Below are positions 33,669-64,000 of a stretch of 64,000 bases of DNA, piece by piece (the stretch's first letter is position 1; each line of letters opens with the position of its first letter). Made by a program: the position numbers and the translations under genes. This DNA comes from Phytophthora colocasiae (Eukaryota; Oomycota; Peronosporomycetes; Peronosporales; Peronosporaceae): the NCBI GenBank assembly GCA_018806915.1, contig JAGKQI010000087.1:1302001-1366000 (forward strand), written 5' to 3'. The notes below the pieces were generated by a model. That model had not been told where the DNA came from. It worked only from the letters and a program-made list of their open reading frames with translations, and did not search any database.

Positions 33669-33698
33669 TGGTGACACGGTGGCTTAGTTCCGGGGGAG

Positions 33699-34036
33699 TA
33701 TCAGTCGAGCGGGTCTTGCTCGGTGCAACCCGCAGAGAACTATCGCCAGTGTCAAGGCCTGTCACTCAGGTGACGGGAAGGCTGGGGACCGTTCTGATGG
33801 ACGTGATCTGCCCTAGTCTAAAGGGGTTTTTGATGCCTGATGGCTTTCCTCCTCTTGCTGTAGGTAACACGCAGCAAGTAAGAACAAATACACTTTTGGA
33901 TTTACTCCACAACACACACTCGTGCCTTTCCTTACCTTTCCAGTGACAAGAAGAAGACTCACGGCCCAAGGACGACGCTGAGGTTCCTGCACGACACAAG
34001 AGCGGCAGAGAACAAGACGACGCTAAAGAGCTGCTA
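33699..34036 (+). repeat. 3' LTR of Copia 2
   Basis: 338 bp. The visible difference from the 5' LTR is a G/T change in the run near 33824. Confidence 0.92.
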
Positions 34037-34610
34037 GCTCCAGCTCCATGACCTTCTCTAGGAGGTACAGAAGCTCCTTCCGTTGCCTCGAACGCGCATG
34101 GTTGGGGTTCTAGCTTGCTGGTCTCTTGGGTCTCTTTTTAAAACTTGTTCTTTTTGTAGCTGTCCTAGCCAGAGCCGGTTCCGTTTCGACCAGTTAGTTC
34201 CATGGACGACGGGAGTCCGTCCAGTGTTGTCGGAGCTTGTAGCTTCAGACTCGACGTCGCAGCCTCGAAGGTGTCAGCGTCTTCTGTAAGATTTAGAGTC
34301 ATGGTTAAGTCAGCGATGTGTGTCGTGTTGAAGGAAAGTTGAGTTGTGAGGATGTACTCAACACAAGGTGATCAATTCGATGGAGGGATGGTAATAATCC
34401 GGTTTTAGTGCAGGTACTCAATCAAATCTTCGCATTTGCCAAATTCCGTATGCTCCAATTTTCATTGGCCATTCTTTCTCACTTCAACATCATGATTGGA
34501 TTCGCTTTCACTACAGCTACTGTTTTCTTCATCTTACGCTACACACTTCCGCGAGCTATCCATACATTGTTATTCGCTCGTCGCTTCTTCTTCCTCGTCT
34601 CCAGGTCGCT

Positions 34611-35331
34611 TCACTTGCTCTTCGACTTGTCTTTGGAGTCAGACTTGGCTTCCTCCTTCGGCTTCGCTGCTGTTGCTGCTGCTGCCTTGCCATCCTTCTC
34701 TACCTTGGTAGCATCAGTGGAAACAGTCGCGGACTCTTGCTTCTTTTCGTCACCATCAATGCCAGCAGCACCCGACGTGGCACCCGACGTGGCACCCGAC
34801 GCGGCAGACTCGTAGCCAAAGCCGCCGTAATAGGGGTAGCCATAGCTGTAGTCCTTGCCGTAGCCATGCCCGGAGTAGCTCGGGTAGCTCGGGTAGCTCG
34901 GGCAACCGTAGGAGTAGTCCGGGTAGTAGCCATAGCCATCACCATATGACGAGTAGTAGTCCGGGTAGTAGTAGTCTCCCTTCTTACCGTAGCTACTGTA
35001 GTAGTCGGGATAGTAGTTGTCGCCTTTCTTGCCGTAACTGTAGTAATCCTTGCCATAGCTGTAGTAGTCCTTGTCATGGCCATAGTCGTCGCAGTCTCCG
35101 CCGTAGCTATTGTAGCCATAACTATAGCCGACACCAAAGCCCTTGTAGTCGTAGACGTCGTGCTTGTAGTCGTAGTTGCCATAGTTGTAGTCGGAGGACT
35201 CCGTGGCCTTGGCCTTGTCGTCCTTGTCTTCTAGACGGCGACGGTAGTGTGAGTGGTCATGGTCGTGTTTGTGGTCGTGTCGATGGTGCCTCTTCTTGTT
35301 CGTGTTTATGGCATTGTAAGAGGGTATCTAC
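34611..35331 (-). pseudogene. Tyr/His-rich repeat gene, 5'-truncated minus-strand copy
   Basis: The frame reads from KKRHHRHDHKHDHDHSHY through the Tyr-rich region and three PSY/PSY/SGH units to the SKDKSKSK tail, with the stop at 34611. Upstream, homology stops at a SYN codon block near 35331, so the signal peptide and most of the His-rich run are missing. It also lacks the segment encoding GYEHKG. Without a start or secretion signal it is likely dead. Confidence 0.75.
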
Positions 35332-43525: not shown

Positions 43526-44104
43526 ATGACGCTAAATCTTACAGAAGACGCTGACACCTTCGAGGCTGCGACGTCGAGTCTGAAGCTACAAGCTCCGACA
43601 ACACTGGACGGACTCCCGTCGTCCATGGAACTAACTGGTCGAAACGGAACCGGCTCTGGCTAGGACAGCTACAAAAAGAACAAGTTTTAAAAGGAGACCC
43701 AAGAGACCAGCAAGCTACAACCCAACCATGCGCGTTCGAGGCAACGGAAGGAGCTTCTGTACCTCCGAGAGAAGGTCATGGAGCTGGAGCAAGAGATCAA
43801 GGTACTGCAGTGTACTTGCCGGCCTAAAACACTGACGGCAGCAAGTGTTAAAGAAAACAAACCCAGTATACACATTGAAGAAGTTACCTCGCCAACAAAC
43901 GTCAAAACCGCTATGTGGAAGGAGATGGCGAGTCTCGCGTTCGGTTGGAAGCAACTCAACGTAAGGAGGTGTTTTTCAGCACAGAGCCACATCGTGATCT
44001 TTCAGCCTTTGCTCGCCAGCGGAAACGATATGATCCGTTTGTCACGAAGGCTCACAAGAGACAAATTCGCGATTGACAGCTACTTATCCATCACAGAAAG
44101 TTGA
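43526..44104 (+). pseudogene. bZIP-like coiled-coil pseudogene, copy 1
   Basis: Starts MTLNLTEDADTFEAATSS and reaches TAG after NGTGSG, with a TAA soon after. Downstream in the same frame lies QPNHARSRQRKELLYLREKV, followed by MELEQEIKVLQ and MWKEMAS. A basic stretch running into leucine-spaced helices followed by an MWKEMAS box resembles the large oomycete family of bZIP-like coiled-coil proteins. Frames of the basic region are split (RPKRPASYNP in one, NHARSRQRKE in another). The same lesions recur in every unit, so the gene died before amplification. Confidence 0.6.
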
Positions 44105-44203
44105 TGTCTTCGGCATCAATGTTGCGTCGCATGAAGCCCACCTCACTCCGCATTTCGCGTCCTCCCCGGCATTCAACTACCAACCGAAGAACCAAGCGAC
44201 AAA

Positions 44204-45052
44204 ATGCAGTCCTCCAAGCTTCTCGGCCTGCTCGGCCTGTTGATCGCTGTCTCCGTCCTCCAACCGACTGACGCCCGTCAACTCGGCTCTTACAATGGCT
44301 ACGGACACCATCACCATAAACACGACCATGACCACGACCATGACCACTCACACTACCGTCGCCGTCTAGAAGACAAGGACGACAAGGCCAAGGCCACGGA
44401 GTCCTCCGACTACAACTATGGCAACTATGACTACAAGCACGACGTCTACGGCTATGAGCACAAGGGCTATGGCTCCGACCACGACGACTACGACTACAAG
44501 GGCTTTGGTGTCGGCTATAGTTATGGCTACAATAGCTACGGCGGAGACTGCGACGACTATGGCCATGACAAGGACTACTACAGCTATGGCAAGGATTATT
44601 ACAGTTACGGCAAGAAGGGCGACAACTACTATCCCGACTACTACAGTAGCTACGGCAAGAAGGGAGACTACTACTACCCGGACTACTACTCGTCGTATGG
44701 TGGTGGCTACGGCTATGGCTACTACCCGGACTACTCCTACGGTTACCCGAGCTACCCGAGCTACCCGAGCTACCCGAGCTACCCGAGCTACCCGAGCTAC
44801 CCGAGCTACGGCTACGGCAACGACTACAGCTATGGCTACCCTTATTACGGCGGTTTTGGCTACGAGTCTGCCGCGTCGGGTGCCACGTCGGGTGCTGCTG
44901 GCATTGGTGGTGACGAAAAGAAGCAAGAGTCCGCGACTGTTTCCACTGATGCTACCAAGGTAGAGAAGGATGGCAAGGCAGCAGCAGCAACAGCAGCGAA
45001 GCCGAAGGAGGAAGCCAAGTCTGACTCCAAAGACAAGTCGAAGAGCAAGTGA
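44204..45052 (+). CDS. Tyr/His-rich secreted repeat protein, copy 2, intact (282 aa)
   Basis: The signal peptide (cleavage near A24) is followed by a shortened His/Asp block (HHHHKHDHDHDHDHSHY; the KKRHHRH segment is deleted). Then come the HYRRRLED basic site, a Tyr/Gly/Asp-rich middle with YYPDYYSSYGKKGD repeats, seven PSY units, GYGNDYSYGYPYYGGFGYES, and the Ala/Lys-rich SKDKSKSK tail. The full frame is open and the core promoter at 44143 is intact. Likely secreted to the wall or extracellular matrix; metal binding by the His block is possible. Not an enzyme. Confidence 0.88.
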   Translation: MQSSKLLGLLGLLIAVSVLQPTDARQLGSYNGYGHHHHKHDHDHDHDHSHYRRRLEDKDDKAKATESSDYNYGNYDYKHDVYGYEHKGYGSDHDDYDYKGFGVGYSYGYNSYGGDCDDYGHDKDYYSYGKDYYSYGKKGDNYYPDYYSSYGKKGDYYYPDYYSSYGGGYGYGYYPDYSYGYPSYPSYPSYPSYPSYPSYPSYGYGNDYSYGYPYYGGFGYESAASGATSGAAGIGGDEKKQESATVSTDATKVEKDGKAAAATAAKPKEEAKSDSKDKSKSK

Positions 45053-45399
45053 AGCGACCTGGAGACGAGGAAGAAGAGGCGACGAGCGAATGGCAATGTA
45101 TGGATAGCTCGCGGAAGTGTGTAGCGTAAGATGAAGAAAACAGTAGCTGTAGTGAAAGCGAATCCAATCATGATGTTGAAGGGAGAAAGAATGGCCAATG
45201 AAAATTGGAGCATACGGAATTTGGTAAAGCCTAAGATATGTCTGACGCCGATTGATTGAGTACCTGCACTAAAATCGGATTATTAGATCCCCTCCTCCCT
45301 CCATCGACTTGATCACCTTGTGTTGAGTACATCTTGCACTCATCCTCACAACTCAAGTTTCCTTTAACACGACACACATCCACACATCGCTGCTTAACC

Positions 45400-45977
45400 A
45401 TGACGCTAAATCTTACAGAAGACGCTGACACCTTCGAGGCTGCGACGTCGAGTCTGAAGCTACAAGCTCCGACAACACTGGACGGACTCCCGTCGTCCAT
45501 GGAACTAACTGGTCGAAACGGAACCGGCTCTGGCTAGGACAGCTACAAAAAGAACAAGTTTTAAAGGAGACCCAAGAGACCAGCAAGCTACAACCCAACC
45601 ATGCGCGTTCGAGGCAACGGAAGGAGCTTCTGTACCTCCGAGAGAAGGTCATGGAGCTGGAGCAAGAGATCAAGGTACTGCAGTGTACTTGCCGGCCTAA
45701 AACACTGACGGCAGCAAGTGTTAAAGAAAACAAACCCAGTATACACATTGAATAAGTTACCTCGCCAACAAACGTCAAAACCGCTATGTGGAAGGAGATG
45801 GCGAGTCTCGCGTTCGGTTGGAAGCAACTCAACGTAAGGAGGTGTTTTTCAGCACAGAGCCACATCGTGATCTTTCAGCCTTTGCTCGCCAGCGGAAACG
45901 ATATGATCCGTTTGTCACGAAGGCTCACAAGAGACAAATTCGCGATTGACAGCTACTTATCCATCACAGAAAGTTGA
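45400..45977 (+). pseudogene. bZIP-like pseudogene, copy 2
   Basis: Same lesions as copy 1, with two further changes: one A lost in the AAAA run near 45564, and a GAA-to-TAA stop in IEEV near 45752. Confidence 0.6.
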
Positions 45978-46076
45978 TGTCTTCGGCATCAATGTTGCGT
46001 CGCATGAAGCCCACGTCACTCCGCATTTCGCGTCCTCCCCGGCATTCAACTACCAACCGAAGAACCAAGCGGCAAA

Positions 46077-46956
46077 ATGCAGTCCTCCAAGCTTCGGCCT
46101 GCTCGGCCTGTTGATCGCTGTCTCCGTCCTCCAACCGACTGACGCCCGTCAACTCGGCTCTTACAATGGCTACGGACACCACCACCATAAACACGACCAT
46201 GACCACGACCATGACCACGACCACAAGAAGAGGCACCATCGACACGACCACAAACACGACCATGACCACTCACACTACCGTCGCCGTCTAGAAGACAAGG
46301 ACGACAAGGCCAAGGCCACGGAGTCCTCCGACTACAACTATGGCAACTACGACTACAAGCACGACGTCTACGGCTATGAGCACAAGGGCTATGGCTCCGA
46401 CCACGACGACTACGACTACAAGGGCTTTGGTGTCGGCTATAGTTATGGCTACAATAGCTACGGCGGAGACTGCGACGACTATGGCCATGACAAGGACTAC
46501 TACAGCTATGGCAAGGATTATTACAGTTACGGCAAGAAGGGCGACAACTACTATCCCGACTACTACAGTAGCTACGGCAAGAAGGGAGACTACTACTACC
46601 CGGACTACTACTCGTCGTATGGTGGTGGCTACGGCTATGGCTACTACCCGGATTACTCCTACGGTTACCCGAGCTACCCGAGCTACCCGAGCTACCCGAG
46701 CTACCCGAGCTACGGCTACGGCAACGACTACAGCTATGGCTACCCTTATTACGGCGGTTTTGGCTACGAGTCTGCCGCGTCGGGTGCCACGTCGGGTGCT
46801 GCTGGCATTGGTGGTGACGAAAAGAAGCAAGAGTCCGCGACTGTTTCCACTGATGCTACCAAGGTAGAGAAGGATGGCAAGGCAGCAGCAGCAACAGCAG
46901 CGAAGCCGAAGGAGGAAGCCAAGTCTGACTCCAAAGACAAGTCGAAGAGCAAGTGA
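46077..46956 (+). pseudogene. Tyr/His-rich gene, copy 3, frameshift in the signal peptide
   Basis: The ATG at 46077 is kept, but two bases are missing in the leucine stretch (CTTCTCGGC is CTTCGGC), so the native start runs out of frame after about six codons. The rest, from GLLGLLIAVSV through five PSY units to SKDKSKSK, is open. It is in frame with an upstream ATG at 45946 lying in the bZIP-like pseudogene, giving a 336-residue extended frame. That extension has no signal peptide at its N-terminus; the hydrophobic segment would be internal. Probably non-functional or non-secreted. Confidence 0.75.
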
Positions 46957-47308
46957 AGCGACCTGGAGACGAGGAAGAAGAGGCGACGAGCGAATGGCAA
47001 TGTATGGATAGCTCGCGGAAGTGTGTAGCGTAAGATGAAGAAAACAGTAGCTGTAGTGAAAGCGAATCCAATCATGATGTTGAAGGGAGAAAGAATGGCC
47101 AATGAAAATTGGAGCATACGGAATTTGGTAAAGCCTAAGATATGTCTGACGCCGATTGATTGAGTACCTGCACTAAAATCGGATTATTAGATCCCCCCCC
47201 TCCTCCCTCCATCGACTTGATCACCTTGTGTTGAGTACATCTTGCACTCATCCTCACAACTCAACTTTCCTTTAACACGACACACATCCACACATCGCTG
47301 ACTTAACC

Positions 47309-47887
47309 ATGACGCTAAATCTTACAGAAGACGCTGACACCTTCGAGGCTGCGACGTCGAGTCTGAAGCTACAAGCTCCGACAACACTGGACGGACTCCC
47401 GTCGTCCATGGAACTAACTGGTCGAAACGGAACCGGCTCTGGCTAGGACAGCTACAAAAAGAACAAGTTTTAAAAGGAGACCCAAGAGACCAGCAAGCTA
47501 CAACCCAACCATGCGCGTTCGAGGCAACGGAAGGAGCTTCTGTACCTCCGAGAGAAGGTCATGGAGCTGGAGCAAGAGATCAAGGTACTGCAGTGTACTT
47601 GCCGGCCTAAAACACTGACGGCAGCAAGTGTTAAAGAAAACAAACCCAGTATACACATTGAAGAAGTTACCTCGCCAACAAACGTCAAAACCGCTATGTG
47701 GAAGGAGATGGCGAGTCTCGCGTTCGGTTGGAAGCAACTCAACGTAAGGAGGTGTTTTTCAGCACAGAGCCACATCGTGATCTTTCAGCCTTTGCTCGCC
47801 AGCGGAAACGATATGATCCGTTTGTCACGAAGGCTCACAAGAGACAAATTCGCGATTGACAGCTACTTATCCATCACAGAAAGTTGA
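47309..47887 (+). pseudogene. bZIP-like pseudogene, copy 3
   Basis: As copy 1, with the same TAG/TAA lesions and the MWKEMAS box; no additional break noted. Confidence 0.6.
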
Positions 47888-47986
47888 TGTCTTCGGCATC
47901 AATGTTGCGTCGCATGAAGCCCACCTCACTCCGCATTTCGCGTCCTCCCCGGCATTCAACTACCAACCGAAGAACCAAGCGACAAA

Positions 47987-48868
47987 ATGCAGTCCTCCAA
48001 GCTTCTCGGCCTGCTCGGCCTGTTGATCGCTGTCTCCGTCCTCCAACCGACTGACGCCCGTCAACTCGGCTCTTACAATGGCTACGGACACCATCACCAT
48101 AAACACGACCATGACCACGACCATGACCACGACCACAAGAAGAGGCACCATCGACACGACCACAAACACGACCATGACCACTCACACTACCGTCGCCGTC
48201 TAGAAGACAAGGACGACAAGGCCAAGGCCACGGAGTCCTCCGACTACAACTATGGCAACTACGACTACAAGCACGACGTCTACGGCTATGAGCACAAGGG
48301 CTATGGCTCCGACCACGACGACTACGACTACAAGGGCTTTGGTGTCGGCTATAGTTATGGCTACAATAGCTACGGCGGAGACTGCGACGACTATGGCCAT
48401 GACAAGGACTACTACAGCTATGGCAAGGATTATTACAGTTACGGCAAGAAGGGCGACAACTACTATCCCGACTACTACAGTAGCTACGGCAAGAAGGGAG
48501 ACTACTACTACCCGGACTACTACTCGTCGTATGGTGGTGGCTACGGCTATGGCTACTACCCGGATTACTCCTACGGTTACCCGAGCTACCCGAGCTACCC
48601 GAGCTACCCGAGCTACCCGAGCTACGGCTACGGCAACGACTACAGCTATGGCTACCCTTATTACGGCGGTTTTGGCTACGAGTCTGCCGCGTCGGGTGCC
48701 ACGTCGGGTGCTGCTGGCATTGGTGGTGACGAAAAGAAGCAAGAGTCCGCGACTGTTTCCACTGATGCTACCAAGGTAGAGAAGGATGGCAAGGCAGCAG
48801 CAGCAACAGCAGCGAAGCCGAAGGAGGAAGCCAAGTCTGACTCCAAAGACAAGTCGAAGAGCAAGTGA
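47987..48868 (+). CDS. Tyr/His-rich secreted repeat protein, copy 4, intact (293 aa)
   Basis: Full-length form: signal peptide to about A24, His/Asp block including HDHKKRHHRHDHKHDHD, HYRRRLED basic site, Tyr/Gly/Asp-rich repeats with a single Cys in GGDCDDYG, five PSY units and the SKDKSKSK tail. Core promoter intact about 50 bp upstream. The Tyr-rich middle has almost no hydrophobic core, so it is likely disordered or fibrous. A second-frame and an antisense frame are also open through the repeats, but these follow from codon composition. Confidence 0.88.
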   Translation: MQSSKLLGLLGLLIAVSVLQPTDARQLGSYNGYGHHHHKHDHDHDHDHDHKKRHHRHDHKHDHDHSHYRRRLEDKDDKAKATESSDYNYGNYDYKHDVYGYEHKGYGSDHDDYDYKGFGVGYSYGYNSYGGDCDDYGHDKDYYSYGKDYYSYGKKGDNYYPDYYSSYGKKGDYYYPDYYSSYGGGYGYGYYPDYSYGYPSYPSYPSYPSYPSYGYGNDYSYGYPYYGGFGYESAASGATSGAAGIGGDEKKQESATVSTDATKVEKDGKAAAATAAKPKEEAKSDSKDKSKSK

Positions 48869-49219
48869 AGCGACCTGGAGACGAGGAAGAAGAGGCGACG
48901 AGCGAATGGCAATGTATGGATAGCTCGCGGAAGTGTGTAGCGTAAGATGAAGAAAACAGTAGCTGTAGTGAAAGCGAATCCAATCATGATGTTGAAGGGA
49001 GAAAGAATGGCCAATGAAAATTGGAGCATACGGAATTTGGTAAAGCCTAAGATATGTCTGACGCCGATTGATTGAGTACCTGCACTAAAATCGGATTATT
49101 AGATCCCCCCCTTCCTCCCTCCATCGACTTGATCACCTTGTGTTGAGTACATCTTGCACTCATCCTCACAACTCAAGTTTCCTTTAACACGACACACATC
49201 CACACATCGCTGCTGAACC

Positions 49220-49796
49220 ATGACGCTAAATCTTACAGAAGACGCTGACACCTTCGAGGCTGCGACGTCGAGTCTGAAGCTACAAGCTCCGACAACACTG
49301 GACGGACTCCCGTCGTCCATGGAACTAACTGGTCGAAACGGAACCGGCTCTGGCTAGGACAGCTACAAAAAGAACAAGTTTTAAAAGGAGACCCAAGAGA
49401 CCAGCAAGCTACAACCCAACCATGCGCGTTCGAGGCAACGGAAGGAGCTTCTGTACCTCCGAGAGAAGGTCATGGAGCTGGAGCAAGAGATCAAGGTACT
49501 GCAGTGTACTTGCCGGCCTAAAACACTGACGGCAGCAAGTGTTAAAGAAAACAAACAGTATACACATTGAAGAAGTTACCTCGCCAACAAACGTCAAAAC
49601 CGCTATGTGGAAGGAGATGGCGAGTCTCGCGTTCGGTTGGAAGCAACTCAACGTAAGGAGGTGTTTTTCAGCACAGAGCCACATCGTGATCTTTCAGCCT
49701 TTGCTCGCCAGCGGAAACGATATGATCCGTTTGTCACGAAGGCTCACAAGAGACAAATTCGCGATTGACAGCTACTTATCCATCACAGAAAGTTGA
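49220..49796 (+). pseudogene. bZIP-like pseudogene, copy 4
   Basis: As copy 1, with a small deletion near 49556 (AAACAGTATAC instead of AAACCCAGTATAC). Confidence 0.6.
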
Positions 49797-49895
49797 TGTC
49801 TTCGGCATCAATGTTGCGTCGCATGAAGCCCACCTCACTCCGCATTTCGCGTCCTCCCCGGCATTCAACTACCAACCGAAGAACCAAGCGGCAAA

Positions 49896-50777
49896 ATGCA
49901 GTCCTCCAAGCTTCTCGGCCTGCTCGGCCTGTTGATCGCTGTCTCCGTCCTCCAACCGACTGACGCCCGTCAACTCGGCTCTTACAATGGCTACGGACAC
50001 CACCACCATAAACACGACCATGACCACGACCATGACCACGACCACAAGAAGAGGCACCATCGACACGACCACAAACACGACCATGACCACTCACACTACC
50101 GTCGCCGTCTAGAAGACAAGGACGACAAGGCCAAGGCCACGGAGTCCTCCGACTACAACTATGGCAACTACGACTACAAGCACGACGTCTACGGCTATGA
50201 GCACAAGGGCTATGGCTCCGACCACGACGACTACGACTACAAGGGCTTTGGTGTCGGCTATAGTTATGGCTACAATAGCTACGGCGGAGACTGCGACGAC
50301 TATGGCCATGACAAGGACTACTACAGCTATGGCAAGGATTATTACAGTTACGGCAAGAAGGGCGACAACTACTATCCCGACTACTACAGTAGCTACGGCA
50401 AGAAGGGAGACTACTACTACCCGGACTACTACTCGTCGTATGGTGGTGGCTACGGCTATGGCTACTACCCGGACTACTCCTACGGTTACCCGAGCTACCC
50501 GAGCTACCCGAGCTACCCGAGCTACCCGAGCTACCCGAGCTACCCGAGCTACCCGAGCTACGGCTACGGCAACGACTACAGCTATGGCTACCCTTATTAC
50601 GGCGGTTTTGGCTACGAGTCTGCCGCGTCGGGTGCCACGTCGGGTGCTGCTGGCATTGGTGGTGACGAAAAGAAGCAAGAGTCCGCGACTGTTTCCACTG
50701 ATGCTACCAAGGTAGAGAAGGATGGCAAGGCAGCAGCAGCAAACAGCAGCGAAGCCGAAGGAGGAAGCCAAGTCTGA
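49896..50777 (+). CDS. Tyr/His-rich secreted repeat protein, copy 5, altered C-terminus (293 aa)
   Basis: Intact from signal peptide to the Ala-rich region, with eight PSY units, the most in the window. An extra A in the AGCAGCAAACAGC stretch near 50741 shifts the frame. The usual Lys-rich SKDKSKSK end is replaced by NSSEAEGGSQV and a stop 27 bp early. The protein would still be secreted; only the basic tail is lost. If that tail anchors or cross-links the protein, this copy would behave differently. Confidence 0.75.
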   Translation: MQSSKLLGLLGLLIAVSVLQPTDARQLGSYNGYGHHHHKHDHDHDHDHDHKKRHHRHDHKHDHDHSHYRRRLEDKDDKAKATESSDYNYGNYDYKHDVYGYEHKGYGSDHDDYDYKGFGVGYSYGYNSYGGDCDDYGHDKDYYSYGKDYYSYGKKGDNYYPDYYSSYGKKGDYYYPDYYSSYGGGYGYGYYPDYSYGYPSYPSYPSYPSYPSYPSYPSYPSYGYGNDYSYGYPYYGGFGYESAASGATSGAAGIGGDEKKQESATVSTDATKVEKDGKAAAANSSEAEGGSQV

Positions 50778-51144
50778 CTCCAAAGACAAGTCGAAGAGCA
50801 AGTGAAGCGACATGGAGACGAGGAAGAAGAGGCGACGAGCGAATGGCAATGTATGGATAGCTCGCGGAAGTGTGTAGCGTAAGATGAAGAAAACAGTAGC
50901 TGTAGTGAAAGCGAATCCAATCATGATGTTGAAGTGAGAAAGAATGGCCAATGAAAATTGGAGCATACGGAATTTGGCAAAGGCTAAGATTTGATTGAGT
51001 ACCTGCACTAAAATCGGATTATTAGATCCCCCCCCCTCCTCCCTCCATCGACTTGATCACCTTGTGTTGAGTACATCTTGCACTCATCCTCACAACTCAA
51101 CTTTCCTTTAACACGACACACATCCACACATCGCTGACTTAACC

Positions 51145-51723
51145 ATGACGCTAAATCTTACAGAAGACGCTGACACCTTCGAGGCTGCGACGTCGAGTCT
51201 GAAGCTACAAGCTCCGACAACACTGGACGGACTCCCGTCGTCCATGGAACTAACTGGTCGAAACGGAACCGGCTCTGGCTAGGACAGCTACAAAAAGAAC
51301 AAGTTTTAAAAGGAGACCCAAGAGACCAGCAAGCTACAACCCAACCATGCGCGTTCGAGGCAACGGAAGGAGCTTCTGTACCTCCGAGAGAAGGTCATGG
51401 AGCTGGAGCAAGAGATCAAGGTACTGCAGTGTACTTGCCGGCCTAAAACACTGACGGCAGCAAGTGTTAAAGAAAACAAACCCAGTATACACATTGAAGA
51501 AGTTACCTCGCCAACAAACGTCAAAACCGCTATGTGGAAGGAGATGGCGAGTCTCGCGTTCGGTTGGAAGCAACTCAACGTAAGGAGGTGTTTTTCAGCA
51601 CAGAGCCACATCGTGATCTTTCAGCCTTTGCTCGCCAGCGGAAACGATATGATCCGTTTGTCACGAAGGCTCACAAGAGACAAATTCGCGATTGACAGCT
51701 ACTTATCCATCACAGAAAGTTGA
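51145..51723 (+). pseudogene. bZIP-like pseudogene, copy 5
   Basis: As copy 1, same lesions. Confidence 0.6.
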
Positions 51724-51821
51724 TGTCTTCGGCATCAATGTTGCGTCGCATGAAGCCCACCTCACTCCGCATTTCGCGTCCTCCCGGCATTCAACTACCA
51801 ACCGAAGAACCAAGCGACAAA

Positions 51822-52722
51822 ATGCAGTCCTCCAAGCTTCTCGGCCTGCTCGGCCTGTTGATCGCTGCCTCCGTCCTCCAACCGACTGACGCCCGTCAAC
51901 TCGGCTCTTACAATGGCTACGGACACCACCACCATAAACACGACCATGACCACGACCATGACCACGACCACAAGAAGAGGCACCATCGACACGACCACAA
52001 ACATGACCATGACCACTCACACTACCGTCGCCGTCTAGAAGACAAGGACGACAAGGCCAAGGCCACGGAGTCCTCCGACTACAACTATGGCAACTACGAC
52101 TACAAGCACGACGTCTACGGCTATGAGCACAAGGGCTATGGCTCCGACCACGACGACTACGACTACAAGGGCTTTGGTGTCGGCTATAGTTATGGCTACA
52201 ATAGCTACGGCGGAGACTGCGACGACTATGGCCATGACAAGGACTACTACAGCTATGGCAAGGATTATTACAGTTACGGCAAGAAGGGCGACAACTACTA
52301 TCCCGACTACTACAGTAGCTACGGCAAGAAGGGAGACTACTACTACCCGGACTACTACTCGTCGTATGGTGGTGGCTACGGCTATGGCTACTACCCGGAC
52401 TACTCCTACGGTTACCCGAGCTACCCGAGCTGAGCTACCCGAGCTACCCGAGCTACCCGAGCTACCCGAGCTACCCTGAGCTACGGCTACGGGCAACGAC
52501 TACAGCTATGGCTACCCTTATTACGGCGGTTTCGGCTACGAGTCTGCCGCGTCGGGTGCCACGTCGGGTGCTGCTGGCATTGGTGGTGACGAAAGAAGCA
52601 GAGTCCGCGACTGTTTCCACTGATGCTAAGGTAGAGAAGGATGGCAAGGCAGCAGCAGCAACAGCAGCGAAGCCGAAGGAGGAAGCCAAGTCTGACTCCA
52701 AAGACAAGTCGAAGAGCAAGTG
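51822..52722 (+). pseudogene. Tyr/His-rich gene, copy 6, broken in the PSY repeats
   Basis: Signal peptide (one change, IAASV), His block and Tyr region are intact to a TGA within the PSY minisatellite at about 52431, where CCGAGCTGAGCTACC replaces a full unit. Further small indels follow (CCCTGAGC, ACGGGCAACG, GAAAGAAGCAG). The 3' end keeps the tail and stop at 52720-52722. It is the last complete unit before the LTR chimeras. Confidence 0.85.
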
Positions 52723-52980
52723 AAGCGACCTGGAGACGAGGAAGAAGAGGCGACGAGCGAATGGCAATGTATGGATAGCTCGCGGAAGTGTGTAGCGTAA
52801 GATGAAGAAAACAGTAGCTGTAGTGAAAGCGAATCCAATCATGATGTTGAAGTGAGAAAGAATGGCCAATGAAAATTGGAGCATACGGAATTTGTCAAAG
52901 GCTAAGATTTGATTGAGTACCTGCACTAAAATCGGATTATTAGACCCCCCTCCCCCTCCTCCCTTGAGTACATCTTGCAC

Positions 52981-53060
52981 TCATCCTCACAACTCAACTT
53001 TCTGTCAACACGACACACATCGCTGACTTAACCATGACTAAATCTTACAGTAGCCGCTGA
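52981..53060 (+). pseudogene. bZIP-like pseudogene, copy 6, cut at its start by an LTR
   Basis: The leader and first codons (ACCATGACTAAATCTTACAG) are followed at 53061 by the LTR instead of the DTFEAATSS codons. Compared with other units, this places the insertion just after GCTGA. Confidence 0.6.
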
Positions 53061-53314
53061 TGTCAGAGATTGCAGTGGTGTCGATCTCTCGCAGTTTTAC
53101 AGTGTCGTATGTGACCTGAAATGATGTTACCATTAGGTGGATTGACTCACGTCTATACTGAGACTAGTACTAGCATACTCTAAGCTAGAGGGGGGTTTTC
53201 CGCAAGGTTTCCTCCTCAATCCCAATCTTTCCGTGGACATCCTGTTGTTCTCGTGTCTTACTCTGCTCTACCAAGTGTGCTACAGCACTCCATTCTACTG
53301 CGTGTGTGCCCTCA
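53061..53314 (+). repeat. First LTR copy of the macrosatellite
   Basis: 254 bp, TGTCAG to CCCTCA, followed by GGTTATGAGGCCCA, a primer site with one extra G. Six further units (to the one starting 58691) carry the same extra G; the units starting 59645 and 60581 have the uninterrupted GGTTATGAGCCCA. Confidence 0.85.
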
Positions 53315-53377
53315 GGTTATGAGGCCCAAGACTGTGGGGCTTTGTAGCGAACACTTGTGAACCTCTGAAGAAGAACG

Positions 53378-53575
53378 ATGGATGGTCTGAACTCTACGAC
53401 TGCTGCAATTACGTCTGGAGTATCGTCAGTTGGACAAGTTGTGTCAAACGTTGTTATTACGGCGGTTTTGGCTACGAGTCTGCCGCGTCGGGTGCCACGT
53501 CGGGTGCTGCTGGCATTGGTGGTGACGAAAAGAAGCAAGAGTCCGCGACTGTTTCCACTGATGCTACCAAGGTAG
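53378..53575 (+). other. Chimeric 65-codon ORF (gag start plus off-frame gene tail)
   Basis: The ATG belongs to the gag leader (MDGLNSTTAAITSGVSSVGQ) and the frame continues into an alternative frame of the gene tail (SLPRRVPRRVLLALVVTK). The same ORF is open at 55254-55451, 58069-58266 and 59006-59215 (69 codons, one extra VPRR), is altered at 59958-60155 and shortened at 56192-56374. Each sits about 65 bp downstream of an LTR, but there is no evidence of translation. Confidence 0.4.
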
Positions 53576-56500
53576 AGAAGGATGGCAAGGCAGCAGCAGC
53601 AACAGCAGCGAAGCCGAAGCGGAGAGCCAAGTCTGACTCCAAAGACAAGTCGAAGAGAGCAAGTGGAAGCGACCTGGAGACGAGGAAGAAGAGGCGACGA
53701 GCGAATGGCAATGTATGGATAGCTCGCGGAAGTGTGTAGCGTAAGATGAAGAAAACAGTAGCTGTAGTGAAAGCGAATCCAATCATGATGTTGAAGTGAG
53801 AAAGAATGGCCAATGAAAATTGGAGCATACGGAATTTGTCAAAGGCTAAGATTTGATTGAGTACCTGCACTAAAATCGGATTATTAGACCCCCCTCCCCC
53901 TCCTCCCTTGAGTACATCTTGCACTCATCCTCACAACTCAACTTTCCGTCAACACGACACACATCGCTGACTTAACCATGACTAAATCTTACAGTAGCCG
54001 CTGATGTCAGAGATTGCAGTGGTGTCGATCTCCGCAGTTTTACAGTGTCAAGTGTGACCTGAAATGATGTTACCATTAGGTGGATTGACTCACGTCTATA
54101 CTGAGACTAGTACTAGCATACTCTAAGCTAGAGGGGGGTTTTCCGCAAGGTTTCCTCCTCAATCCCAATTTTTCCGTGGACATCCTGTTGTTCTCGTGTC
54201 TTACTCTGCTCTACCAAGTGTGCTACAGCACTCCATTCTACTGCGTGTGTGCCCTCAGGTTATGAGGCCCAAGACTGTGGGGCTTTGTAGCGAACACTTG
54301 TGAACTCTGAAGAAGAACGATGGATGGTCTGAACTCACGACTGCTGCAATTACGTCTGAGGTATCGTCAGTTGGACAAGTTGTGTCAAACGTTATATATG
54401 GCGGTTTTGGCTACGAGTCTGCCGCGTCGGGTGCCACGTCGGGTGCTGCTGGCATTGGTGGTGACGAAAAGAAGCAAGAGTCCGCGACTGTTTCCACTGA
54501 TGCTACCAAGGTAGAGAAGGATGGCAAGGCAGCAGCAGCAACAGCAGCGAAGCCGAAGGAGGAAGCCAAGTCTGACTCCAAAGACAAGTCGAAGAGCAAG
54601 TGAAGCGACCTGGAGACGAGGAAGAAGAGGCGACGAGCGAATGGCAATGTATGGATAGCTCGCGGAAGTGTAGCGTAAGATGAAGAAAACAGTAGCTGTA
54701 GTGAAAGCGAATCCAATCATGATGTTGAAGTGAGAAAGAATGGCCAATGAAAATTGGAGCATAACGGAATTTGTCAAAGGCTAAGATTTGATTGAGTACC
54801 TGCACTAAAATCGGATTATTAGACCCCCCTCCCCCTCCTCCCTTGAGTACATCTTGCACTCATCCTCACAACTCAACTTTCCGTCAACACGACACACATC
54901 GCTGACTTAACCATGACTAAATCTTACAGTAGCCGCTGATGTCAGAGATTGCAGTGGTGTCGATCTCCGCAGTTTTACAGTGTCAAGTGTGACCTGAAAT
55001 GATGTTACCATTAGGTGGATTGACTCACGTCTATACTGAGACTAGTACTAGCATACTCTAAGCTAGAGGGGGGTTTTCCGCAAGGTTTCCTCCTCAATCC
55101 CAATCTTTCCGTGGACATCCTGTTGTTCTCGTGTCTTACTCTGCTTTCACCAAGTGTGCTACAGCACTCCATTCTGCGTGTGTGCCCTCAGGTTATGAGG
55201 CCCAAGACTGTGGGGCTTTGTAGCGAACACTTGTGAACCTCTGAAGAAGAACGATGGATGGTCTGAACTCTACGACTGCTGCAATTACGTCTGGAGTATC
55301 GTCAGTTGGACAAGTTGTGTCAAACGTTGTTATTACGGCGGTTTTGGCTACGAGTCTGCCGCGTCGGGTGCCACGTCGGGTGCTGCTGGCATTGGTGGTG
55401 ACGAAAAGAAGCAAGAGTCCGCGACTGTTTCCACTGATGCTACCAAGGTAGAGAAGGATGGCAAGGCAGCAGCAGCAACAGCAGCGAAGCCGAAGGAGGA
55501 AGCCAAGTCTGACTCCAAAGACAAGTCGAAGAGCAAGTGAAGCGACCTGGAGACGAGGAAGAAGAGGCGACGAGCGAATGGCAATGTATGGATAGCTCGC
55601 GGAAGTGTGTAGCGTAAGATGAAGAAAACAGTAGCTGTAGTGAAAGCGAATCCAATCATGATGTTGAAGTGAGAAAGAATGGCCAATGAAAATTGGAGCA
55701 TACGGAATTTGGCAAAGGCTAAGATTTGATTGAGTACCTGCACTAAAATCGGATTATTAGACCCCCCTCCCCCTCCTCCCTTGAGTACATCTTGCACTCA
55801 TCCTTACAACTCAACTTTCCGTCAACACGACACATCGCTGACTTAACCATGACTAAATCTTACAGTAGCCGCTGATGTCAGAGATTGCAGTGGTGTCGAT
55901 CTCCGCAGTTTTACAGTGTCAAGTGTGACCTGAAATGATGTTACCATTAGGTGGATTGACTCACGTCTATACTGAGACTAGTACTAGCATACTCTAAGCT
56001 AGAGGGGGGTTTTCCGCAAGGTTTCCTCCTCAATCCCAATCTTTCCGTGGACATCCTGTTGTTCTCGTGTCTTACTCTGCTCTACCAAGTGTGCTACAGC
56101 ACTCCATTCTACTGCGTGTGTGCCCTCAGGTTATGAGGCCCAAGACTGTGGGGCTTTGTAGCGAACACTTGTGAACCTCTGAAGAAGAACGATGGATGGT
56201 CTGAACTCTACGACTGCTGCAATTACGTCTGGAGTATCGTCAGTTGGACAAGTTGTGTCAAACGTTGTTATTACGGCGGTTTTGGCTACGAGTCTGCCGC
56301 GTCGGGTGCCACGTCGGGTGCTGCTGGCATTGGTGGTGACGAAAGAAGCAAGAGTCCGCGACTGTTTCCACTGATGCTACCAAGGTAGAGAAGGATGGCG
56401 TGAAAGGCGGCAGCAGCAACAGCAGCGAAGCCGAAGGAGGAAGCCAAGTCTGACTCCAAAGACAAGTCGAAGAGCAAGTGAAGCGACCTGGAGACGAGGA

Positions 56501-57130
56501 AGAAGAGGCGACGAGCGAATGGCAATGTATGGATAGCTCGCGGAAGTGTGTAGCGTAAGATGAAGAAAACAGTAGCTGTAGTGAAAGCGAATCCAATCAT
56601 GATGTTGAAGTGAGAAAGAATGGCCAATGAAAATTGGAGCATACGGAATTTGTCAAAGGCTAAGATTTGATTGAGTACCTGCACTAAAATCGGATTATTA
56701 GACCCCCCTCCCCCTCCTCCCTTGAGTACATCTTGCACTCATCCTTACAACTCAACTTTCCGTCAACACGACACACATCGCTGACTTAACCATGACTAAA
56801 TCTTACAGTAGCTGATGTCAGAGATTGCAGTGGTGTCGATCTCCGCAGTTTTACAGTGTCAAGTGTGACCTGAAATGATGTTACCATTAGGTGGATTGAC
56901 TCACGTCTATACTGAGACTAGTACTAGCATACTCTAAGCTAGAGGGGGGTTTTCCGCAAGGTTTCCTCCTCAATCCCAATCTTTCCGTGGACATCCTGTT
57001 GTTCTCGTGTCTTACTCTGCTCTACCAAGTGTGCTACAGCACTCCATTCTACTGCGTGTGTGCCTCAGGTTATGAGGCCCAAGACTGTGGGGCTTTGTAG
57101 CGAACACTTGTGAACCTCTGAAGAAGAACG

Positions 57131-57415
57131 ATGGATGGTCTGGAACTCTGCCGACTGCTGCAATTACGTCTGAGTATCGTCAGTTGGACAAGTTGTGTCA
57201 AACGTTGTTATTACGGCGGTTTTGGCTACGAGTCTGCCGCGTCGGGTGCCACGTCGGGTGCTGCTGGCATTGGTGGTGACGAAAAGAAGCAAGAGTCCGC
57301 GACTGTTTCCACTGATGCTACCAAGGTAGAGAAGGATGGCAAGGCAGCAGCAACAGCAGCGAAGCCGAAGGAGGAAGCCAAGTCTGACTCCAAAGACAAG
57401 TCGAAGAGCAAGTGA
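57131..57415 (+). other. Chimeric ORF in frame with the Tyr/His-rich tail (94 aa)
   Basis: In this unit small indels in the gag leader place its ATG in frame with the native gene tail: MDGLELCRLLQLRL, then CYYGGFGYESAASGATSG through to SKDKSKSK. A similar in-frame fusion occurs at 59900-60244, starting from the ATG inside the primer site. No signal peptide is present. A chance product of drift is the simplest reading. Confidence 0.4.
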
Positions 57416-59899
57416 AGCGACCTGGAGACGAGGAAGAAGAGGCGACGAGCGAATGGCAATGTATGGATAGCTCGCGGAAGTGTGTAGCGTAAGATGAAGA
57501 AAACAGTAGCTGTAGTGAAAGCGAATCCAATCATGATGTTGAAGTGAGAAAGAATGGCCAATGAAAATTGGAGCATACGGAATTTGGCAAAGGCTAAGAT
57601 TTGATTGAGTACCTGCACTAAAATCGGATTATTAGACCCCCCTCCCCCTCCTCCCTTGAGTACATCTTGCACTCATCCTTACAACTCAACTTTCCGTCAA
57701 CACGACACACATCGCTGACTTAACCATGACTAAATCTTACAGTAGCCGCTGATGTCAGAGATTGCAGTGGTGTCGATCTCCGCAGTTTTACAGTGTCAAG
57801 TGTGACCTGAAATGATGTTACCATTAGGTGGATTGACTCACGTCTATACTGAGACTAGTACTAGCATACTCTAAGCTAGAGGGGGGTTTTCCGCAAGGTT
57901 TCCTCCTCAATCCCAATCTTTCCGTGGACATCCTGTTGTTCTCGTGTCTTACTCTGCTCTACCAAGTGTGCTACAGCACTCCATTCTACTGCGTGTGTGC
58001 CCTCAGGTTATGAGGCCCAAGACTGTGGGGCTTTGTAGCGAACACTTGTGAACCTCTGAAGAAGAACGATGGATGGTCTGAACTCTACGACTGCTGCAAT
58101 TACGTCTGGAGTATCGTCAGTTGGACAAGTTGTGTCAAACGTTGTTATTACGGCGGTTTTGGCTACGAGTCTGCCGCGTCGGGTGCCACGTCGGGTGCTG
58201 CTGGCATTGGTGGTGACGAAAAGAAGCAAGAGTCCGCGACTGTTTCCACTGATGCTACCAAGGTAGAGAAGGATGGCAAGGCAGCAGCAACAGCATGAAG
58301 CCGAAGGAGGAAGCCAAGTCTGACTCCAAAGACAAGTCGAAGAGCAAGTGAAGCGACCTGGAGACGAGGAAGAAGAGGCGACGAGCGAATGGCAAATGTA
58401 TGGATAGCCTCGCGGAAGTGTGTAGCGTAAGATGAAGAAAACAGTAGCTGTAGTGAAAGCGAATCCAATCATGATGTTGAAGGGAGAAAGAATGGCCAAT
58501 GAAAATTGGAGCATACGGAATTTGGCAAAGGCTAAGATTTGATTGAGTACCTGCACTAAAATCGGATTATTAGACCCCCCTCCCCCTCCTCCCTTGAGTA
58601 CATCTTGCACTCATCCTTACAACTCAACTTTCCGTCAACACGACACACATCGCTGACTTAACCATGACTAAATCTTACAGTAGCCGCTGATGTCAGAGAT
58701 TGCAGTGGTGTCGATCTCCGCAGTTTTACAGTGTCAGTGTGACCTGAAATGATGTTACCATTAGGTGGATTGACTCACGTCTATACTGAGACTAGTACTA
58801 GCATACTCTAAGCTAGAGGGGGGTTTTCCGCAAGGTTTCCTCCTCAATCCCAATCTTTCCGTGGACATCCTGTTGTTCTCGTGTCTTACTCTGCTCTACC
58901 AAGTGTGCTACAGCACTCCATTCTACTGCGTGTGTGCCCTCAGGTTATGAGGCCCAAGACTGTGGGGCTTTGTAGCGAACACTTGTGAACCTCTGAAGAA
59001 GAACGATGGATGGTCTGAACTCTACGACTGCTGCAATTACGTCTGGAGTATCGTCAGTTGGACAAGTTGTGTCAAACGTTGTTATTACGGCGGTTTTGGC
59101 TACGAGTCTGCCGCGTCGGGTGCCACGTCGGGTGCCACGTCGGGTGCTGCTGGCATTGGTGGTGACGAAAAGAAGCAAGAGTCCGCGACTGTTTCCACTG
59201 ATGCTACCAAGGTAGAGAAGGATGGCAAGGCAGCAGCAGCAACAGCAGCGAAGCCGAAGGAGGAAGCCAAGTCTGACTCCAAAGACAAGTCGAAGAGCAA
59301 GTGAAGCGACCTGGAGACGAGGAAGAAGAGGCGACGAGCGAATGGCAATGTATGGATAGCTCGCGGAAGTGTGTAGCGTAAGATGAAGAAAACAGTAGCT
59401 GTAGTGAACAAAGCGAATCCAATCATGATGTTGAAGTGAGAAAGAATGGCCAATGAAAATTGGAGCATACGGAATTTGTCAAAGGCTAAGATTTGATTGA
59501 GTACCTGCACTAAAATCGGATTATTAGACCCCCCTCCCCCTCCTCCCTTGAGTACATCTTGCACTCATCCTCACAACTCAACTTTCCGTCAACACGACAC
59601 ACATCGCTGACTTAACCATGACTAAATCTTACAGTAGCCGCTGATGTCAGAGATTGCAGTGGTGTCGATCTCCGCAGTTTTACAGTGTCAAGTGTGACCT
59701 GGAAATGATGTTACCATTAGGTGGATTGACTCACGTCTATGTCGAGACTAGTACTGGCATACTCTAAGCCAGAGGGGGTTTTCGCAAGGTTTCCTCCTCA
59801 ATCCCAATCTTTCCGTGGACATCCTGTTGTTCTCGTGTCTTTCACTCTGCTCTACCAGTGCTACAGCACTCCATTCTACTGCGTGTGTGCCCTCAGGTT

Positions 59900-60244
59900 A
59901 TGAGCCCAAGACTGTGGGGCTTTGTAGCGAACACTTGTGAACCTCTGAAGAAGAACGATGGATGGTCTGAACTCTACGACTGCTGCAATTACGTCTGGAG
60001 TATCGTCAGTTGGACAAGTTGTGTCAAACGTTGTTATTACGGCGGTTTGGCTACGAGTCTGCCGGCGTCGGGTGCCACGTCGGGTGCTGCTGGCATTGGT
60101 GGTGACGAAAAGAAGCAAGAGTCGCGATCTGTTTCCACTGATGCTACCAAGGTAGAGAAGGATGGCAAGGCAGCAGCAGCAACAGCAGCGAAGCCGAAGG
60201 AGGAAGCCAAGTCTGACTCCAAAGACAAGTCGAAGAGCAAGTGA
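59900..60244 (+). other. Chimeric ORF starting in the primer-binding site (114 aa)
   Basis: With the uninterrupted primer site the frame reads MSPRLWGFVANTCEPLKKND through the gag leader into the gene tail, with a short frame wobble around YYGGLATSLPASG, and ends at the native stop. In units with the extra G the same ATG leads to an early stop. Confidence 0.35.
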
Positions 60245-60580
60245 AGCGACCTGGAGACGAGGAAGAAGAGGCGACGAGCGAATGGCAATGTATGGATAGC
60301 TCGCGGAAGTGTGTAGCGTAAGATGAAGAAAACAGTAGCTGTAGTGAAAGCGAATCCAATCATGATGTTGAAGTGAGAAAGAATGGCCAATGAAAATTGG
60401 AGCATACGGAATTTGGCAAAGGCTAAGATTTGATTGAGTACCTGCACTAAAATCGGATTATTAGACCCCCCTCCCCCTCCTCCCTTGTGTACATCTTGCA
60501 CTCATCCTTACAACTCAACTTTCCGTCAACACGACACACATCGCTGACTTAACCATGACTAAATCTTTGGTAGCCGCTGA

Positions 60581-60833
60581 TGTCAGAGATTGCAGTGGTG
60601 TCGATCTCCGCAGTTTTACAGTGTCAAGTGTGACCTGAAATGATGTTACCATTAGGTGGATTGACTCACGTCTATACTGAGACTAGTACTAGCATACTCT
60701 AAGCTAGAGGGGGGTTTTCCGCAAGGTTTCCTCCTCAATCCCAATCTTTCCGTGGACATCCTGTTGTTCTCGTGTCTTACTCTGCTCTACCAAGTGTGCT
60801 ACAGCACTCCATTCTACTGCGTGTGTGCCCTCA
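60581..60833 (+). repeat. 5' LTR of Copia 3
   Basis: 253 bp, TGTCAG to CCCTCA. Inverted GAGGGGGG/CCTCCTC motif at 60707-60736. Confidence 0.85.
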
Positions 60834-60846
60834 GGTTATGAGCCCA
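60834..60846 (+). other. Primer-binding site of Copia 3
   Basis: GGTTATGAGCCCA, identical to the sites of Copia 1 and 2. Confidence 0.75.
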
Positions 60847-60895
60847 AGACTGTGGGGCTTTGTAGCGAACACTTGTGAACCTCTGAAGAAGAACG

Positions 60896-62071
60896 ATGGA
60901 TGGTCTGAACTCTACGACTGCTGCAATTACGTCTGGAGTATTGTCAGTTGGACAAGTTGTGTCGATTTGGTAGGATAACAGGTTGGCGGTACTAACAACA
61001 GGTGGATAGGGGCCTGGAAGTACTTAACAGGTGGGTAGTGCTAGAACAACAGATATTAATTATTTTCCGATTCAGTCGTCTGTAACCACGATTCCGTTGT
61101 CGGTGGCTCCTACATTGATTTCTACTGGAACTTCTGTGATGAATACAGCTACTAGTGTTGTTCCTGCGGGTTATGCAGCTAGTGTTGGTGGTTCAACTGG
61201 ATTACCGAGTAGTGGAGTGGCACCTGTCTTGTCAGCGTGTAGTGGAAGTGGTATTGGATCTGGAAATGCTGGTGGTGTATCAAACTCCGGGTTTTCTGTA
61301 GGTCCTAGTGTACCGAACGTGCCAAACTTTAGTGGAGCGTGCTATAATTCTGGTGGCTTCAATTTTGGTGCAAATCCAAGTGGACAATCAGGCTTTACCG
61401 GATTTGGATTTCCTCGAGCTGGATTGCCGACGACACCAATAAAAATGGATAATGTGCCTAAAAGGAAAGGAAGTTTTGATCTCTATGCTGTGCAATTGCG
61501 AGCATTTTTGATTCGTGTGGGTTGTTGGAGTGTCGTGGATGGAACATTTGATCACAGTGATCCATTGCTGGGAGCGAGTTTTTCTGTGAGGGATAACGTA
61601 GCTCGTGAGGCTATTCTGTCTGGTGTCCCTGCTCAAGATGCTGAAATGATCTGCCAGGAAGACACGGCTCAAGCAATGTGGAATCGCTTTGTTGACAAGC
61701 AAACTAAGAGAGAATATTCCAATTACATCTTTGCTCGTGCTGAGTTTTACTCCAACGTGTACACAACAGACAAAAGTATTGAACAATGGTTACGCGATAT
61801 GGAGTCATTGCGAAGACAATTGTTGCACTATGGGAAGCGTGTGTCTGATGATGACTACGCAGAGACTCTTCTGGGTCATGTTGCTCGTACTCACCGCGAT
61901 GTAGTACGTCAATGCGATGTAGTACGTCAATTCTCTAAACATTACATTGTGCGGCGTGATGGTGGTGCTGATCGCCCGGTGCCTACTGCCAATCAAGTGA
62001 TGAATGCCCTTCGCGCTGAATCGGCCCTGGATGAGAAAATTGGTGCCGAAGAACAAAAACCTAGGGGGTAA
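60896..62071 (+). pseudogene. Copia 3 gag, interrupted 5' end
   Basis: The natural ATG at 60896 (MDGLNSTTAAITSG) is in frame with the main gag frame but meets stops from about 60971 within a stretch holding three AACAGGTKG motifs. The frame reopens at about 61031, with the next ATG at 61139. A Ser/Gly/Val-rich N-terminus leads into the gag core (RKGSFDLYAVQLRAFLIRVG, EDTAQAMWNRFVDKQTKREY, LRRQLLHYGKRVSDDDYAETL), then a stop at 62069. The lesion may force initiation at 61139. Confidence 0.75.
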
Positions 62072-64000
62072 GAATAAGCGAAAGAGAGGTACTCACAACA
62101 AGAAGACTCAGAAAGAGAAGAATCAGCAACGCAATTCTGGCGGAAAGCAGAAAGGCAAGCAAGAAACTCGAACCTGCTATCACTGTGGTGAAGTTGGACA
62201 TTTGCGGCCTAACTGTCCGGACCGAAACCAAGATTCCTCGGAGGACGAAAGATCTGAGAAGGACTTTGCAACGTCAGAGCGCAAGCGATGGCAGAACAAG
62301 TCGGGCAATGATAGTAAGAAGAAGAAGGTTGATGCAGTTGGTATTATCTCTCGCGATTCTTTGACTGTGAGTTCTGTGACTGAATCACGTGGTGGTTGCG
62401 AGTGGGTATTGGATTCTGCAAGCGATGTACACGTATGCAAACGACAAAATCTGCTATCCGAACTGGAAAATGATTCAACACACGTCTTTCAAGGCTATGA
62501 TGGAGGCATATCTGGTAATGAAAAAGTTGGAAATGTGCAGCTTCAGATCAAGAACAGTAAACAGCCGCACCAAGATGTTGTCTTGAAGTTAAAGAACGTC
62601 TTGTTTAAATCTTCCGCGCCAGATAATTTACTTAGTCTTGACGTGATGGAAAAAGACGGTTGGAACTGGAAAACGGGATTCCGTGATTCTCGTCGTGTGG
62701 CATGGCTATCGAAAGGGAAAGTGCAGTTGTTATTGGTAAAGACTCACGGTAGATATCGTTTGGAGGCTACACCAAGCACTGTGTTTCACGTCCCATCGCT
62801 GCGTCAATGCAGTCAAGTTGTTTCTAATGATACTGAACGTGGTGCTACTGGTAGACCAACAAGTGCTACTGGTAACCATAACGTCGCAGTCCCTGCTGAG
62901 GCTAAGAAATGCGATGCAGACTCACTTGGACGTTGGCACCTACGCTTCGCTCACTTGAACTTTCCTGCACTGAAGAAGATGGCTCGGCAACAAGTGACTG
63001 TGGGTATGAAGAACACGTTGCATGATGATCTTGACACTCCGTGTTGGAGCTGTAGGGCGGTAAAGATGACAAGAATGTCGTACAAGAAGATGAAGACTCG
63101 TCGTGCGATTAAGCCTTACCAGAAGTTAATGTCAGACATGTGCTACATGGGAATAGTGACGTATGATGGATACTCACATCTTCAGCTCGTCCAGGATGAA
63201 GCAAGTCGGTACTTGTGGGGATTTCTGATGAGACGCAAGGAAGATGCTTCGGACGTTGTGTTAGCTCAAGGACATAAGATTGAGGTTTTCAACTCTGACC
63301 AAGGCCGTGAACTTCTTAACAACAAGATGACAGCTTATTTCACTGCTCATGGATTTGAGTATACCTGGACAAATGGGTACAGTCCGGAAGAGAATGGACT
63401 GGTGGAGAGAATGAACGGTATTGTAGCGGCTCAAGTGCGTTGTATTTTGACGACTGCAAATATGCCAAACCTCCTGTGGGGAGAAGCGTTCAATTTCGCT
63501 GTGGAAGTGAGAAACATTTCGGCTTCAAAGGCTTTGGATGGTGAAACGACGTATTTCAAGCGCTTCAGTGAGTGTCCTGACGTCTCCAAGCTACGGATTT
63601 GGGGCTGTCTTGTCTTCGTATTCACACCGAAGAAGCTTCGAAAGAACAAACTTGAGAACCCTGGTAAAGCTGGGTTATTCATGGGCTTTACCAAGCACTC
63701 TGAGAGCTTTCGTGTGTTAAGTCTCGTTACTGGTAATGTACAAGAAGTTCGGGCTGTGGATTTTCACGAGGAGTGGACTGTAGATCGCAGTTATGTGGAT
63801 CGTTTACTCGCTAATCGGTATGGTAAAGGGCGTGCTCGCTCACTACCAACTGTGATTCCTTTCGTCCGTCTTCCTGTGAGTGGTGTGATGTGTCATGATA
63901 GTGATGATAGTTCGCTGGTCTCTGATGAACATCCTTCGAAGCGCCGCCGTTGCGACGGTGATGCTACTGCTTTTCAAGCTGAAGTGGGAGCTCCGGTCTA
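62061..64000 (+). CDS. Copia 3 pol, partial: zinc knuckle, protease, integrase
   Basis: Open to the window end in the +1 frame relative to gag. In order: a basic stretch, zinc knuckle CYHCGEVGHLRPNC (near 62175), and protease motif WVLDSASDVHVC (near 62405), with DSA in place of the common DSG. Then the integrase zinc-binding HHCC (WHLRFAH...CWSC, 62936-63052) and catalytic Asp (MSDMCYMG, 63131), Asp (NSDQGREL, 63292) and Glu (PEENGLVERMNG, 63386). The integrase C-terminus is followed by an acidic linker. RT is expected next, beyond the window. The gag-pol junction reads CCT AGG GGG TAA. Confidence 0.88.

Follow-up and report, generated by a model that had tools for sequence, protein, structure and literature searches.

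Two adjoining tandem arrays

The window analysed here is a 64,000-nucleotide stretch of DNA, bases 1302001-1366000 of contig C6 in an assembly of 92.5 Mb and 105 contigs. Self-comparison of the window reveals two tandem arrays that adjoin each other. The first consists of 1.9-kb units and reaches up to position 53,060, while the second consists of 0.93-kb copies and occupies positions 52,518-60,963 (Table 1). Similarity among the 1.9-kb units starts further left than the five units listed, near 42235. The product of the gene in these units is about 290 aa long, is rich in His, Tyr and Gly and has no Pfam match, and the reading frames of the spacer are interrupted by stops. The number of CTACCCGAG repeats also differs from unit to unit; this repeat lies about 50 bp upstream of the gene-side break of the second array.

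Fifteen relatives of the tandem gene are found on contig C83 (1441333-1475911), mostly at a spacing of about 2 kb and with 63-68% DNA identity in the main matches. These relatives make up another tandem array of the family, with greater divergence. Within the window, a minus-strand relative of the gene unit, located within 27044-35162, seems to be split into two parts (27044-28567 and 34037-35162). The sequence that splits it is bounded by a 339-bp direct repeat of 99.7% identity (28568-28906 and 33699-34037). The repeats look like the LTRs of a further Copia-type element, whose ORFs lie at 29252-33644, so that here a unit of the tandem-gene family would have received a second Copia insertion. 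The window also encodes two RXLR-type secreted proteins (Pfam PF16810) at 3963-4598 and 14172-14702. On the strength of these two matches, we take the source to be an oomycete and probably a pathogen of plants.

Table 1. Features of the two arrays and of the element at their right end. Positions refer to the window unless a contig is named.
Feature	Position	Strand	Remarks
Five 1.9-kb tandem gene units	43550..53060	+	Spacer with broken frames, and gene
Copy c0	52518..53445	+	Gene-unit tail (from the last unit left of the element), LTR and leader/gag start
First array LTR, 254 bp, TG...CA	53061..53314	+	
8-nt filler AAACGTTG	53446..53453	+	Joint 1
Copy c1	53454..54386	+	
Copy c2	54395..55321	+	
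Copy c3	55330..56259	+	
Copy c4	56268..57199	+	Derived at both informative substitutions
Copy c5	57208..58136	+	
Copy c6	58145..59073	+	
Copy c7	59082..60025	+	12-bp gain, most private changes
Copy c8	60034..60963	+	Runs on into the element
GCTGA, left copy of target duplication	60576..60580	+	Right copy beyond the window, at C6:1368356-1368360
5' LTR, 253 bp	60581..60833	+	3' LTR at C6:1368102-1368355, 254 bp
Primer site GGTTATGAGCCC	60834..60845	+	Directly after the LTR
Right end of Mutator-like (MULE) DNA transposon, 104 bp	60965..61068	+	Left part lost
Nine bases after the remnant, GATTCAGTC	61069-61077	+	
gag frame	61139..62071	+	Pfam Retrotran_gag_2, copia-type, E 7.9e-13
pol frame, start	62004..64000	+	Continues past the window

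Anatomy of the composite copies

In this assembly, the second array contains nine head-to-tail copies of 927-944 bp within 8.4 kb at one locus. Each copy joins the 3' tail of the tandem gene to the 5' LTR, primer site and gag start of a Copia element and ends at GTGTC. The gene tail accounts for about 543 of the roughly 930 bp and comprises the end of the coding region, the 3' flank and the beginning of the spacer as far as GCTGA. The LTR is 251-254 bp long across the copies and has the orientation of the gene tail. LTRs start at 53061, 54005, 54940, 55876, 56816, 57753, 58691, 59645 and 60581. An earlier note on this DNA had described a tandem array of LTR, primer site, leader and gene tail in eight units of about 940 bp. 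Self-comparison and unit alignment confirm this array, and the number holds when units are counted from LTR start to GCTGA (53061-60580), in which case they measure 935-954 bp. Counted as duplicated segments there are nine, with the gene fused to the first and the element to the last. The "gag leader" of that description is correct as to the leader, but the first codons of the ATG frame MDGLNSTT... are repeated as well. The term macrosatellite, which denotes a large array of many long units, does not suit an array of this copy number and extent and is not retained.

The joint between copies reads GTGTC/AAACGTTG/TTATTACGG, in which AAACGTTG is an 8-nt filler, and its gene-side breakpoint is the first base of c0 (CCC/TTATTACGG). 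All eight joints are of this one kind. Seven are identical and one (54379) is altered; beyond joint 1, the identical filler is found at 55322, 56260, 57200, 58137, 59074 and 60026, and the altered one at 54387. After every LTR but the ninth comes a GTTGTGTC-AAACGTT joint. A search of the whole genome for the joint pattern with at most 3 mismatches returned seven forward and no reverse matches, all in the array, and none for the control. The altered eighth joint was found separately. A template for the filler was sought, without a shuffle control, by taking short words from 19 bases that span the joint and matching them to the last gene unit plus c0, the part of the element within the window, the leading 1,400 bases of locus L009 and two MULE loci. 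This search gave no 10-base match, one match of 9 bases, a few of 8 and more of 7, none of them convincing.

A 21-base stretch is present in gene units 1-4 and absent from unit 5 and from all eight array units. Unit 5 and the array units also share a GTAGC...GCTGA ending, which is shortened in one of the eight. This common loss and common ending identify unit 5 as the source of the repeated tail. Elsewhere in the genome, the Copia matches found are single or paired and none is in tandem; four pairs are about 5.2-5.3 kb apart and one pair (C33) 19.6 kb apart, these counts being lower bounds.

A chimeric protein encoded by the array units was considered and rejected, because the gene's own frame is entered only once, via private indels. 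In four of the eight units, the ATG in the leader opens a frame of 65 aa that enters the gene tail out of the native frame (53378, 55254, 58069 and 59958, the last with altered residues). The other four units have frames of 64, 60, 94 and 69 aa, and the 94-aa frame alone enters the gene's own frame.

The Copia element at the right end

The earlier note placed the full element at the right end of the array, where a long Copia element with gag and pol frames indeed lies. It spans 60,581 to C6:1368355 and thus runs past the window. Its LTRs are paired, run from TG to CA and are flanked by GCTGA on both sides, as a Copia insertion should be. On the right it is followed by GCTGACACCTTCG, with which the spacer continues in intact 1.9-kb units, and a further gene unit lies beyond the element, which places the Copia insertion inside the 1.9-kb array. 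This matching right half also upholds the earlier claim of an insertion just after GCTGA. The claim that the junction of element and host was amplified is supported by unit 5 as the source of the tail, by GCTGA on both sides and by the single kind of joint; what was duplicated is the left boundary of one insertion. In the gene unit to the right of the element, the middle is replaced by about 230 non-matching bp (L009, C6:1369288-1369514).

The putative primer site, which may match half of the initiator tRNA, contains an extra G (GAGGCCC) in c0-c6 that is absent from c7, c8 and six other aligned Copia copies. The genome contains the complement of this site 657 times and the reversed control 9 times, and AGGGCTCATAACCC was not found. 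The pol frame encodes, in order, a zinc knuckle, Pol_BBD, gag_pre-integrs, rve and SH3_retrovirus, with rve at 30.6 bits, just below the cut-off of 32.6. RVT_2 (E 5.3e-18) lies further downstream in L009, and the stretches read lie about 1 kb apart. The position of the integrase before the reverse transcriptase and the copia-type gag mark the element as copia-type. One clear substitution and an altered G/T run separate the 5' LTR from the 3' LTR, so that the insertion looks young. LTRs of the same Copia without adjoining element sequence were seen in L025 (C86) and L026 (C22); the near-identical flanks of the two, with GCGCT on both sides, suggest that one locus is present on two contigs.

A Mutator-like remnant and its target site

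The insert of about 104 bp that follows GTGTCG at the gag start is absent from all seven other Copia 5' ends that were fetched. These are all the ends that matched LTR plus leader in the genome search, which is a lower bound. Each of the seven has GATTCAGTC or GATTAAGTC at the corresponding site, and GTGTC or TTGTC precedes it in six. In five ends GATTCAGTC directly follows GTGTC, the sixth reads TTGTC/GATTAAGTC, and in the remaining one (L024) GATTCAGTC comes after a fold-back insertion. The undisturbed site in other copies implies that the MULE cut just after GTGTC. The insertion in L024 (C21:1762900-1764200) is an inverted repeat with 15-bp arms and a folding z of -6.52. It lies immediately beside the base of the array joint and MULE target and lacks this MULE end.

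The 104-bp end occurs near-whole at 22 or more places in the genome, this one included, among at least 40 scored matches of any length. The family comprises short copies of about 650 bp and long copies of about 3.5 kb, with inverted ends of about 85 bp and about 85% identity. Both long copies scanned contain an 886-aa frame with a SWIM finger above the cut-off, and one of the two has a MULE domain at 21.2 bits, below the cut-off of 27.6. At 16 distinct right ends, the 9-bp target duplication of the family is exact in 11 and matches at 8 of 9 bases in one, and the other four have no matching left flank in hand. The insert at the gag start appears, from its sequence, to have made such a 9-bp duplication too, the right copy of its target being complete and the left one reduced to GATT. 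Its left join reads GTGTCGATT followed by TGGTAGG and lies up to four bases past the GTGTC cut, where an ATT microhomology could have assisted joining. The remnant is found in the last copy only and its left end is missing; no intact intermediate was seen.

The array breakpoint coincides with the edge of this target. The last element base in the repeated copies is the C of GTGTC, the base before the 9-bp MULE target, and this breakpoint is unambiguous because the next base differs (A versus G). With the array joint at the cut and the remnant join at most four bases on, two abnormal joins start within four bases of one cut. If breakpoints were uniform over the element of about 5.8 kb, the probability of an exact match to either edge of the target would be about 2/5,800. 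The earlier note included neither the 8-nt filler nor the MULE remnant at the breakpoint, and these change the likely mechanism.

A proposed origin of the first duplication

In our judgement, the odds are slightly better than even (about 0.55) that misrepair at the MULE site seeded the duplication and that unequal exchange then expanded it. A Copia element would first have inserted in the spacer of the 1.9-kb tandem gene array with a 5-bp target duplication. Later, a Mutator-like transposon would have entered the first gag codons of this element at GTGTC^GATTCAGTC, and a break or unfinished gap repair may have followed at the left side of this second insertion. The broken end would have been mis-joined to, or extended on, the 3' end of the gene about 930 bp upstream in a sister copy, with the 8-nt filler at the joint. 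Such a repair would yield a head-to-tail duplication of tail, LTR and leader, which unequal exchange between copies may have raised to nine. If this explanation holds, GTGTCAAACGTTGTTATTACGG is expected in reads. Nested transposition as a mechanism of satellite birth is a more tentative idea; here, a DNA transposon would have hit a recently inserted retrotransposon, and the 3' end at its target cut would not have been filled in but extended into the upstream copy. The boundary of retrotransposon and host would thereby become a tandem repeat, with the scar of the aborted transposon left in the last copy.

The fold-back insertion in L024 suggests that the site itself is fragile and weakens the case for the MULE as the cause. 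If the gag start is fragile in itself, ordinary replication slippage or end joining could have duplicated the junction, with the MULE landing there independently before or after. This would account for three rearrangements within about 10 bp (the array joint, the MULE remnant and the fold-back) and fits a gene-side break about 50 bp downstream of the number-variable CTACCCGAG repeat. Yet the array breakpoint agrees with the MULE target edge to the base, and the strong hairpin occurs only in the rearranged L024, whereas the site in L018 and L020 (two of the six uninterrupted copies) folds no better than shuffles (z -0.35). We therefore regard site fragility as a doubtful source of the first duplication and retain misrepair at the MULE site as the preferred reading.

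Variation among copies and the way of expansion

A comparison of the nine copies gives 50 difference events; 43 occur in a single copy only, and gaps are part of 34. Many are small swaps such as poor polishing would leave behind. Of the seven events that are not private, four are alignment neighbours or differing letters and not common states. Private events amount to about 5.1/kb in the array versus about 1.8/kb in gene units 1-4 together and about 9/kb in unit 5. Differences of this private and often indel kind are also produced by assembly errors, so that copy number and age are uncertain. Dating by raw identity was rejected, because private and often gapped events dominate.

Two substitutions are informative. 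At tail column 407, which is column 1737 in the alignment of units, gene units 1-4 have G (pattern-confirmed in unit 4 only) and c0, c1, c2, c4 and c7 have T. At column 500 the gene units have C, and c3-c6 and c8 have T. Copy c4 has T at both columns, and the two ancestral states occur together in the other gene units. The presence of two haplotypes and a recombinant, c4, supports unequal exchange to the extent that two substitutions can.

The star-like pattern of mostly single-copy differences would also be expected if a circle of about 936 bp, closed from tail to leader, had been copied as a concatemer in one burst and returned to the locus by homologous recombination, and such a rolling circle would give all units one kind of joint. 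It is nevertheless improbable, since the two haplotypes with their recombinant and the restriction of the extra primer-site G to c0-c6 look stepwise, and the private changes may be errors. Errors could go further, in that one or a few true copies may have been multiplied or degraded by the assembler or polisher; private rates of this height, with most events confined to one copy and most gapped, resemble those of badly polished repeats. A real joint, however, requires at least two copies, and three variants common to several copies tell sets of copies apart. An artefact is thus very improbable as an account of the whole array, while a wrong copy number is still possible. Stepwise growth by unequal exchange, from a duplication seeded at the MULE site, remains the reading that we favour.

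Comparison with known systems

To our knowledge, the origin of the first duplication that seeds a satellite is seldom visible, as old arrays are without flanks. At this locus one can still see the gene and the element that served as sources, the two ends of the insertion, the founding joint and, at the breakpoint, the scar of a second transposon. With this full set of parts, the proposal can be tested by comparison of isolates.

Three kinds of system are similar to this locus. Satellites and tandem repeats derived from LTR retrotransposons likewise contain a piece of an LTR element in a head-to-tail unit and have probably grown by unequal exchange. In contrast to them, over half of the unit described here is the tail of a host gene, a single insertion boundary is involved, and the array is low-copy and confined to one locus. 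Segmental tandem duplications with a novel joint resemble it in having one non-homologous joint with a short filler, followed by homologous expansion; here, however, no complete gene is amplified and the joint sits at the target of a nested transposon. MULEs and their aberrant repair offer the third comparison, with 9-bp target duplications, inverted ends and a SWIM finger in long copies as shared features. What sets this locus apart from them is the one-ended 104-bp remnant and the proposed outcome, a tandem duplication of the flank.
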